Below, piece after piece: positions 13,434 to 16,779 of a stretch of DNA of 64,000 nt. The notes below the pieces were generated by a model that saw only the letters and a list, made by a program, of their open reading frames with translations, ran no database searches and was not told the DNA's origin. The DNA is from Aquanectria penicillioides (lineage: Eukaryota > Ascomycota > Sordariomycetes > Hypocreales > Nectriaceae): NCBI GenBank assembly GCA_003415625.1, contig PYIU01000002.1:3038001-3102000 (forward strand), in the 5' to 3' direction. How positions within the stretch are numbered: position 1 is the stretch's first letter; each line of letters begins with the position of its first letter. The position numbers and the translations under genes were made by a program.

Positions 13434-16400
13434 TCACTCCTCTGCAAGCTCGGCTTGCATTTCTAGTCCTGCATCTTCATTAGCTATATTTAACCTGGGG
13501 TTCTTTTCTCCATCCTTACTCCAAAGCCTGTTGGCCGACTCCGATATGACCTTGGCCTTCACTATCAGTTTTTCCTCGTACTTTTCGTTGGCCTTCTCTT
13601 TTAGACGAATCTTGTTCGGTTGGGCCTTTGGAAAAAAAAAATCAGCAGTGGCCGAGTGTGGACGAAGGTTCTGTCTAACCTGCATTAACACTGGTAAGAG
13701 TTCCATTGGATCAGCATTAGCGATGGCCGCAATGGTTCGGAATCCGTTCTCCCAAAAAACTCGACTGTGGGGCAATAAGTAAGCTGTTCATATGAGGGAA
13801 GAGATCACATACGCTGTCCGACTCTTGATGAATGTGATTTTGGCCAAGGCTAACAGGTCAGCCCTTGCTCCGGCGACGAGCCTGTCTGAGAAATGGTCGA
13901 GAGCGGCTGCCATCATCCTGGCACATCTTTAGCCCCGGTAGAAATCCCACCACGTATTGAAAACTCACCCCCAACCCATCTGCTCGCAGAATTTGATCAT
14001 TCCGGCCGCAAATCCCTGGCAAGTCTGGGCTAGATTCTGCACGGTTCCTCGGGGCACATCATATTTTCGCGCTACCACATGGACTGGTACCTCGTTACAC
14101 AGATCGCGTAATTGGAGGGCAAGATAGAATCGCCGGTAAACACGAGCGAGGTCCTTTTCCTGCTGCGTAGTTTCCCGGAGAGAAGCGCCCTGTGCCCTGT
14201 ACTTGATGAGTGAATTGCGACGTACCATCGCATGGCATGACTCACAGTCTAAGAATAGTTGTAGGTTTGATGTCGAGGAGGCCGAGTACCCGGAGGCCGC
14301 TTTCATCGAGGCGATCCATCTCGTTTCGAAAAACTTGCCAGTTGACAGCGACACCGAATTCCTGGACTGGAGTAAAAGTGTACAGTATGTGCATCTCGCC
14401 GTCCATGACAAATGCCTGAAGGGCTCGGCCGAGCTCTTTGTGGACGAACACACCATCGTCAGGGTCAATTGCCGATGCAACAATTGCCTTGCCCAATTGA
14501 GTAGCGGTATACATAGAAAAGGAGTCGCGAGTGACAAACCCCATCATTTCTATTTCTTCCAGGCTGGATGTGATGCAGTCTTGGACGAACCTGGCATCAT
14601 GCGTATGACTCAAGAGTGATTTTGCGAAATAATCGTCAATAGATTCACGACTTACAGCTAGCCGAATCGATATCACCTCTAAGAGGGCACTGCAAATGAT
14701 TAGATATGAATCTCAAAAGTCTCACTGGAGCTTACCGTTGGATCCGTCGATTTTCCGTGCTGAGACAACTGGCAACTTTAGGTAACTCGGCATGCATTAA
14801 GTCTACCACATGCCCCAGGTCATCTTCGTGACAACAGAGATATGTCTCCCCAATAGGGGCTTTGCCTTGTCTGCCGGCTCGCCCTCGCATCTGCCTTAGC
14901 ATTGATGGACCAACAAATTCTCTTCCCATCCGGCAATTATGAAGAATGACCCTCCTTGCTGGCCTATATCAAATAAGTAGAGGTCTTATGTTGGCTCGAG
15001 AAAGCATACAAATTGATACCGGCTGCAAGGCTGCAAGTAGCAACACACACCAGAACCGTCCCATTGTCATAGGCTGCCGCGATGAGGTCCCTCTCCTCTG
15101 TGGTTAGGCCAGCCTGTCTTGTTAGAAGTGCCCCTTGTTTCTGGGATTCAACTTACATCTGACCAAATTAGTAGTGTGGATTGGAAGGGAAATCTTAGTT
15201 TGAACATACGATGGAATGCAACACCATAGAGTACGGTCTCTTCGAGCACAGGGTCGACCCCCGTATTGAGGCTTCGGAGCTCCCCAAGCAAGTCTAATCT
15301 CCTCTCAACCAATATTGGATCTAATTCATTCGGTGAGGGCATTACTCGGCTTATCCAACGCGCGTCAGCTTCGCATGTACCCCGACTACCAGCAAAAACC
15401 AGGGCTCCAAATCCGGCGGAAGCGGTCTCATGAGCGAGTGAAACCACTGAATTCAACACTGAGTCTCGAAATTCTTTGTGAGTAGAAGGCTCGATTTTTC
15501 GAGAAGGAGTGGTAGAAATTTGGGTCGGAGAAGGCTTATTTGATTGCGTTGGGGCCTTGACCAATGTGTTGACCGACCCAGCGGGATATATGTTGCCGTC
15601 GCACACCAAATGCTCCTCGATGGGCACTGGACGGTAACGAGTTTCGTAGCAATGGCCATTGATCCATTCCGCCATAAGATCCATGTTCTATGGTCGGTGG
15701 TTAGTGGTGAAGGGATAGCCTGAATTGGGAGAGGTACAGGAAGGGTGGCGCTCATGCCGATTATTTGGATGGGCTGCTCAAGGCTGAGCAATTTGGTCGC
15801 CACGAGCTCCAAGAGATATCCACGATGATCATCATCAATCATGTGCAATTCATCTAAAACTACTACTCTCAGTTGGGGGATGGAGCAGTCGTCGATTGCA
15901 GTGTTCACGAGTGCGTTCGCCTGATCCTGGTTTAGTTTCGGAAGCTATGACGAAGTCAGGTGAGCCAACCTTCTCTAACGTGCAAACGCCAATATCAAAG
16001 TCCTGCCATGTTGCTCTTACTTTTCCGCCACCAAAGAAACCTACAACACGGACAGTGCCTTCGTCTGCACGCCGTTGCCATATGCTGTTTTTAGCCTCGG
16101 CATCATCGACATCTGCTAAGTCGCGGAGGCCTTGAACAACGTTGCGTAGCCATCGAACTTTTTCCTGGACTAAAGCGACATATGGAAGCACAAGAAGTGC
16201 CTTTGAACCCTTGTTTTCGATGATCCTTTTGAGCATTAGGACTAATTAATGGTTAGCCTCAAGACACGCGTGGTGTGCGAAGAACGTACCATCAGCTACG
16301 AGAGATTTGCCGCCCCCTGTTGGCGCACAATACACAAGATTCTTTTCCCCAGTCAGGAGGCCTGGGCCCTTGAGGCAAGACTTTTGCCAAGGGTAGATTT

Positions 16401-16779
16401 GTTTGATACCAAGGGAAGCAAAGTTTTCAACCAACTTGGAGGGCAGCCCATAAGTAGGATGAGCCAAGTCCAATTCAGCATCACGGGAAGCTGACGGAGT
16501 AGCGGCTATAACTCTCCGCTGAGAATATTCAGAAATCCCATGAGAGGGCTTTAAATCCACGATAGGACTTGAGGAGAGCCGGCGAGAGGTGCTGGGGAGA
16601 CTAGAAGCTCTCTGAAACTGAAATGCACTTCGGGAACTCAACGACTGAGACGTAGACTGGAGATCACTATTGGACCTTGTTCTTTTTTGACCGGCGACAG
16701 AAGATGTGGTCAATGCTGTATTTTGACGATTTGCAGCTTCCACACTTGTCGTGTGGAGGATCCCTCGCATGCCCTTCAT
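13434..16779 (-). CDS. Ski2-like DNA helicase of the Pol theta/HELQ type, no polymerase domain
   Basis: Twelve exons: 16779-16290, 16241-15970, 15926-15738, 15687-15210, 15158-15157, 15113-15010, 14963-14736, 14689-14246, 14196-13969, 13917-13813, 13764-13680 and 13625-13434. Total 2817 nt, 938 aa; introns are 43-54 nt. Motifs: Walker A APTGGGKS (152-159), DELH box (279-282), SATLPN (about 313-318), FHHAGLTTEER (475 on), and QMRGRAGRQG (536 on) as motif VI. The rest matches the ratchet/HhH part of Pol theta and HELQ (VMDGEMHILYTF, YRRFYLALQLRDL, EVPVHVVARKYDVPRGTVQ). DHRGYLLEL after the DELH box is closer to Pol theta than to HELQ. The gene ends after the helicase module. Role by homology: ATP-dependent annealing or strand displacement in double-strand-break and crosslink repair. 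Exon 5 is only 2 nt long. ATG 16779 is the first in its frame. Confidence 0.88.
15114..15209 (-). other. twin micro-introns flanking a 2-nt exon
   Basis: On the minus strand: donor GTATGT at 15209, branch-like TACTAAT, acceptor CAG ending at 15159 (51 nt); then the dinucleotide AT (15158-15157); then donor GTAAGT at 15156, branch-like TTCTAAC, acceptor CAG ending at 15114 (43 nt). The upstream exon ends on the first base of a codon (C). C plus AT gives His and restores the conserved FHHAGL motif. Splicing both introns as one 96-nt unit would shift the frame and reach a stop within about 16 codons. Confidence 0.8.

Follow-up and report, generated by a model that had tools for sequence, protein, structure and literature searches.

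How is the second His of a conserved helicase motif, FHHAGL, encoded when the exon before it ends one base into the codon, the next long exon begins with the following Ala, and two short introns with consensus signals lie in between? This question is raised by a gene on the minus strand (13434..16779, ATG to stop) of the window, the 64-kb stretch of Aquanectria penicillioides DNA analyzed here from a genome of 53.8 Mb in 13 contigs. The encoded protein contains DEAD, Helicase_C, HTH_61, POLQ_helical and DUF7898 domains, and its closest solved structures are the DNA polymerase theta (Pol theta) chains 9bh6 and 5a9j, which we take to be human Pol theta. The POLQ-type helicase domains and the best structural match bear out the first-pass annotation, which had called the gene a Pol theta-type helicase. 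As the domain search detected no family A polymerase domain in this protein, it is a helicase-only relative and not a full-length Pol theta; the sole DNA_pol_A match of the genome is on another contig, C7. No second copy of the gene was found among 15 genome matches, seven of which are pieces of the helicase gene itself and eight of which are weak (25-35% identity). In the protein tree, the gene falls within the Nectriaceae clade with Fusarium, Ilyonectria, Dactylonectria, Neonectria and others.

The initial splice model of the gene comprised 12 exons, a CDS of 2811 nt and 11 introns of 43-54 nt. The last exon of this model contains a further intron in frame, intron 12 (13469..13519, minus strand, 51 nt, GTAAGG..TGCAG), the removal of which restores the C-terminus of the relatives: the protein then ends in SANRLWRLEMQAELAEE, in line with relatives such as P0002, which ends in ANKLWRLQLQSEIDEE. 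The corrected model has 13 exons, a CDS of 2760 nt and 919 aa, close to the 917, 916 and 918 aa of the relatives P0001, P0002 and P0003. The 12 exons and 2817 nt proposed in the first-pass annotation were not reproduced; judging by the exon count, intron 12 was missing from that model as well. The homologue searches and the tree were run with the uncorrected 936-residue protein as the query.

In the splice model and its translation, exon 4 (15210..15687, minus strand, 478 nt) codes as far as GVAFH and then closes on a single C, in phase 1, and exon 6 (15010..15113, minus strand, 104 nt) begins with GCT GGC CTA (AGLTTEERD). Between them, on the same strand, the locus reads GTT GCA TTC CAT C/GTATGT..TACTAAT..TCAG/AT/GTAAGT..TTCTAAC..ACAG/GCT GGC CTA, where slashes mark the exon borders. 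Intron 4 (15159..15209, minus strand, 51 nt) has the donor GTATGT, the acceptor TCAG and a branch site matching the consensus, TACTAAT (15167..15173, minus strand), with the branch A at 15168, 9 nt before its 3′ end. Intron 5 (15114..15156, minus strand, 43 nt) has the donor GTAAGT, the acceptor ACAG and the consensus branch site TTCTAAC (15121..15127, minus strand), with the branch A at 15122, 8 nt before its 3′ end. The sequence thus agrees with the earlier description of two introns separated only by AT. These two bases (15157..15158, minus strand), designated exon 5, complete the C of exon 4 to CAT for His 475 of the model and, as had been claimed, restore the second His of GVAFHHAGL, all nine residues of which are identical in the aligned Pol theta entries 9bh6 and 5a9j. 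Exon 5 is bounded by AG and GT, is flanked by introns that each have a donor, a branch site and an acceptor, and is needed by both the reading frame and the conserved motif. On these sequences, and on the signature in relatives described below, AT at 15158-15157 is very probably a genuine, constitutive 2-nt internal exon between introns that are removed one after the other.

To what extent the frame depends on these two bases can be read from the computed products. A join straight from exon 4 to exon 6 had been said to shift the frame and to reach a stop within about 16 codons; the computed product, FHRWPNHRGEGPHRGSL followed by a stop, ends after 15 residues past FH. That was the only alternative considered in the first-pass annotation, and an in-frame model that keeps intron 4 also exists. 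Retention of intron 4 alone leaves the frame open and places an 18-residue stretch where one His should be, a net gain of 17 residues in the motif. As the length of intron 4 is divisible by three and its reading contains no stop, this model had to be judged by comparison with relatives. Retention of intron 5 leads to a premature stop after HVS, so that the protein would end in FHHVS.

Within the 96-nt interval between exons 4 and 6, a search for in-frame stretches of 0-12 nt that are bounded by AG and GT and leave at least 35 nt on either side found AT alone; the one further micro-exon candidate, of 6 nt, is out of frame. We also searched for single introns with donors from 80 nt upstream of the exon 4 end through the end of intron 5, and FHHAGL was kept by none of the 46 in-frame GT/GC-AG solutions. 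Two related arrangements were rejected. Removal of the whole interval, as expected of a stwintron, results in a frameshift and a stop, and a zero-nucleotide recursive splice site would leave none of the two retained bases that the frame needs.

The succession of donor, branch site, YAG, two nucleotides, donor, branch site and YAG matched the window once on both strands, at 15114-15209. Since 40 first-order Markov sequences contained one match altogether (mean 0.025), a chance origin of this pattern was rejected. The sizes of introns 4 and 5 are consistent with those of the 11 introns of the initial model. Both introns match the donor consensus in full, while the donors of introns 1-3 and 11 are weaker, and together with intron 3 they have the top branch-site scores of the 11 introns scored. 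Such strong signals on both sides of exon 5, near the top of the 11 introns scored, argue for constitutive use. Introns 4 and 5 are also compatible with published Fusarium introns, for which PMC5677156 gives lengths of 42-529 nt and a CTRAY branch site in 91%.

Gene finders do not readily place a 2-nt exon; if the exon is shared, the gene models of relatives should therefore break at this junction more than elsewhere. Three protein searches gave 1160, 1019 and 2502 hits; the best 120 listed from each make up 220 distinct clusters at 90% identity, all of which were classified. The classification concerns cluster representatives, with some species present more than once; the intact cluster P0003 stands for 61 sequences and the broken cluster P0011 for 58. 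The genus named in the source label served to assign each order (three were looked up), and Amphisphaeriales were pooled with Xylariales. Among these 220 listed homologues, FHHAG is intact in 9/65 of Hypocreales, 9/35 of Glomerellales and 19/33 of Sordariales, and in 48/52 of Xylariales plus Amphisphaeriales, 10/10 of Diaporthales, 4/6 of other orders and 19/19 of the unlabelled proteins ('lgn'). A search for the DNA of this gene from relatives in viral and prokaryotic collections found none, as expected for a fungal gene.

The position of the breaks was examined in an alignment of 200 homologues. An indel within 5 residues of the junction of exons 4 and 5 is present in 50 of the 65 Hypocreales models, and the nine other junctions have 2, 10, 0, 22, 4, 4, 0, 3 and 3 such cases. 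The 22 belong to junction 6, which lies 35 residues downstream and is where several models broken at the micro-exon rejoin. Sordariales models have indels in 12/33 at the micro-exon junction and in 0-2 elsewhere. In Glomerellales the counts are 9/18 at the micro-exon junction and 13/18 at junction 1. Junction 1 corresponds to residue 164, in the Walker A region, where a second unusual exon or intron may exist in Glomerellales. For the presence of the exon in orthologues, these counts provide a protein-level signature that appears strong in Hypocreales and Glomerellales and weaker in Sordariales.

Some homologues outside the two main orders deserve separate mention. All ten Diaporthales models have the motif intact and indels at none of the 11 junctions. 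The gene may be intronless in Diaporthales and Xylariales; full-length unlabelled proteins come from long contigs (up to 105 kb). At the residue of the micro-exon, FHR work-arounds or inserts occur in P0131, P0132, P0134, P0150, P0180, P0198 and P0217, which are homologues of Sordariales, Amphisphaeriales and Chaetosphaeriales type. As models of further orders also fail at this residue, the micro-exon may predate Hypocreales and Glomerellales.

Many of the wrong models correspond to decoys that we computed from this window: DP/AGL, EET/AGL, G/AGL, FHQERDL, FHPYD and FHR..D-AGL. Donors internal to exon 4 account for GVDP/AGL, EET/AGL and YG/AGL, an acceptor internal to exon 6 for FHQERDL and, in P0040, for FHPYD, and the other class reads through an intron. 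Thirteen models have an insert between FH and AGL. In seven of them D directly precedes AGL, as fits AG+AY: P0005, P0007, P0055 and P0059 (Hypocreales), P0083 and P0098 (Glomerellales) and P0180 (Sordariales). Six of the seven inserts begin with R (C+GT) and are 17-20 residues long, and that of P0007 is only HFLD; the remaining six of the 13, in P0014, P0088, P0093, P0134, P0198 and P0217, do not end in D. The string FHHV, consistent with C+AY and a following GTN, was found in ten models, six of Hypocreales and four of Glomerellales (P0006, P0023, P0026, P0038, P0073, P0084, P0201, P0204, P0209 and P0212, where P0209 is the C. scovillei cluster and P0212 the C. fructicola/scovillei cluster). 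From D before AGL and from FHHV, the arrangement AG/AY/GT can be deduced in the relatives that carry these models. A class of 'other' models, 23 of Hypocreales and six of Glomerellales, was not decoded. FHQAGL in P0061, P0076, P0140 and P0218 and FHRAGL in P0132 are taken for probable work-arounds of the gene predictors.

When the long intron-4 peptides, including that of the window, were compared with one another, leaving out the pair P0055/P0059 with identical peptides, only their ends were found to agree, 0-4 of 14-16 internal residues were identical, and 18-27 of 27 and 17-27 of 29 residues were shared in the two flanks. Divergence inside conserved flanks indicates that the interval behaves as an intron.

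Three unlabelled proteins allow a comparison with their nearest annotated relatives in a tree built without the junction region. P0049 adjoins Colletotrichum fioriniae P0120 at a distance of 0.001. Of 904 aligned residues the two share 903, and they are set apart by two gaps, as P0120 lacks VAFHH and a piece of the Walker A region that are present in P0049. P0001 pairs with Ilyonectria robusta P0013 at a distance of 0.015, and the nearest annotated relatives of P0047, the Claviceps proteins P0051 (0.134) and P0069 (0.161), are more distant. P0001, P0047 and P0049 all read FHHAGL, and their annotated partners do not. The longest contigs behind the three are 4.8-7.7 kb, as expected for assembled transcripts, and we infer that they are spliced transcripts from a set, lgn, that carries no source label. 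The notion that all lgn proteins are transcripts was rejected on account of the long contigs (up to 105 kb) behind some of them. With their short contigs and broken nearest annotated relatives, P0001, P0047 and P0049 are the members of the set to which this evidence is limited, and they suggest that the exon is included in the mature mRNA.

These comparisons bear on the choice between the 2-nt exon and other readings of the locus. If intron 4 were coding, a single 43-nt intron (15156-15114) would be removed and the protein would read FH-RMFKLRFPFQSTLLIWSD-AGL, so that one His would give way to a net insertion of 17 residues. The 51-nt stretch is indeed open and in frame, and six relatives' models (P0005, P0055, P0059, P0083, P0098 and P0180) have a comparable read-through of 17-20 residues from R to D. 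However, the insertion breaks a motif that the solved Pol theta helicase has in identical form, and the stretch itself carries a donor, a branch site and an acceptor. The corresponding stretches of relatives share almost no internal sequence and have implied lengths of 48, 51, 54 and 57 nt within conserved flanks, and the motif is intact in some models from within the family (P0002 and P0003), so that we regard coding use of intron 4 as very unlikely. A single intron with other splice sites, such as a join of exon 4 at 15097 that yields FHQERDL, is still less probable. It would mean that the motif is altered in these fungi, and the 46 in-frame solutions, of a kind that a number of public models use, all lose FHHAGL; furthermore, the public models of related species disagree on the join, and intact FHHAGL proteins stand beside broken models from the same or very close species (P0049/P0120 and P0001/P0013).

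The need for a micro-exon would be only apparent if bases were missing at the junction through an assembly error or if the gene were a pseudogene. The locus is represented by one assembly alone, but elsewhere in the gene the frame stays open across ten further GT-AG introns, complete acceptor and donor signals enclose AT, and in at least three orders the models fail at this very residue, which makes either case highly improbable. A different kind of alternative accepts the exon and supposes that its use is regulated, skipping or retention lowering the output of helicase. Exon 5 skipping or intron 5 retention gives an early stop and intron 4 retention an in-frame insertion, and a 20-nt microexon of Trichoderma Xlr2 is switched by glucose (PMC11121469). 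Against this, folding of the RNA around the twin introns revealed no special structure (z 1.15), and together with the strong splice signals this renders regulation unlikely. The most likely interpretation of the sequences is a constitutive 2-nt exon that Hypocreales and Glomerellales, at the least, have in common and that many annotations get wrong. The actual splicing in A. penicillioides, the order of intron removal and the age of the exon are what we infer.

The constitutive exon would separate two spliceosomal introns by 2 bases, the first interrupting the second His codon in phase 1 and the other following that codon directly in phase 0. Each intron would be recognized as a unit (intron definition) through its strong donor and branch site. 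The acceptor of intron 4 and the donor of intron 5 are probably too close for simultaneous use, and the introns would therefore be removed in turn, in either order, to join C+AT+GCT; such sequential removal is sterically plausible. For the 1-nt exon of APC11, Guo and Liu likewise propose sequential intron removal and consider exon definition very unlikely (PMC4674806). The mature mRNA would contain CATCATGCTGGC after either order, and the spliced junction is predicted to read TTCCATCATGCTGGC. Both orders of removal yield an identical mRNA, which bears on the suggestion that splicing order could control the production of active helicase.

The likely origin of the exon is two independent intron positions, in phase 1 and phase 0, flanking the last two bases of the His codon. 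Once both introns were present, mis-splicing of either would harm the conserved motif or the frame. As the other computed outcomes frameshift the helicase or break the motif, selection should either keep the splice sites of both introns or favor the complete loss of the two introns. Such a loss may have occurred in the lineages with clean models, as it did in most monocots in the case of APC11 (PMC8831610). A more far-reaching proposal is that the exon was present in the common ancestor of Sordariomycetes, has been kept since and lost only with its introns, and in addition acts as a gate on the output of active helicase. In such a gate, the fraction of transcripts keeping intron 4 (a motif-breaking insert in frame) or intron 5 (an early stop) would set the amount of active helicase. 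We offer this combination as a speculation with a small chance of being right.

If the constitutive exon is real, 82 of the 100 models listed for Hypocreales and Glomerellales, from Fusarium, Trichoderma, Colletotrichum, Verticillium and other genera, misread a conserved motif of a DNA-repair-family helicase, and fungal surveys of Pol theta-type genes based on models of this sort would give a distorted picture. The case also points to an inexpensive route to more ultra-short exons, namely to inspect conserved motifs where the models of a clade break in many ways. RNA-supported 1-nt exons have already been published; the interest of the helicase exon lies in how widely it is misannotated and in its apparent presence across several orders.

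The earlier remark that exons this short are very rare is fair, except that transcript-supported 1-nt exons have been published in fungi and plants. The open-licence literature matches listed included neither a 2-nt exon in a fungal nuclear gene nor a report of the helicase exon; the phrase single-nucleotide exon occurs in two articles about mitochondrial genomes of fungi (PMC12308204, PMC8208691). An RNA-supported 1-nt exon has been described in the cytochrome P450 gene CYP621A of Fusarium, with SRA reads across the junction and 20 Fusarium orthologues (PMC12940212), and the same article cites exons of 2-5 nt in Arabidopsis, Drosophila and human. As described there, the CYP621A exon resembles the helicase exon in that it is fungal, lies between two introns and completes a codon in a conserved motif, that the frame is lost without it, and that the deposited models, nearly all of them for CYP621A, are wrong at this point. 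In contrast to the single base reported from Fusarium, the helicase exon has two bases, belongs to a different gene and leaves signs beyond Fusarium and Hypocreales. The 20-nt microexon of Xlr2 in Trichoderma (PMC11121469) was likewise overlooked by annotation in Hypocreales; unlike this ten times longer and alternatively spliced microexon, the helicase exon is probably constitutive. Stwintrons of filamentous ascomycetes (PMC9024468, PMC12403724, PMC6616335) are also two short introns removed in succession. In a stwintron, a splice element of one intron is split by the other intron and everything is removed, whereas AT appears to be kept here and the frame depends on it. The 1-nt exons of plant APC11 and VPS55 are conserved over large clades and absent from reference annotations (PMC4674806, PMC8831610). 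That of APC11 is used constitutively in Arabidopsis and has been lost where the gene has no introns, in most monocots; a parallel with the possibly intronless genes of Diaporthales and Xylariales would be a guess. The plant APC11 exon was proven with constructs and cDNA, while the fungal exon described here, twice as long, is known from sequence.
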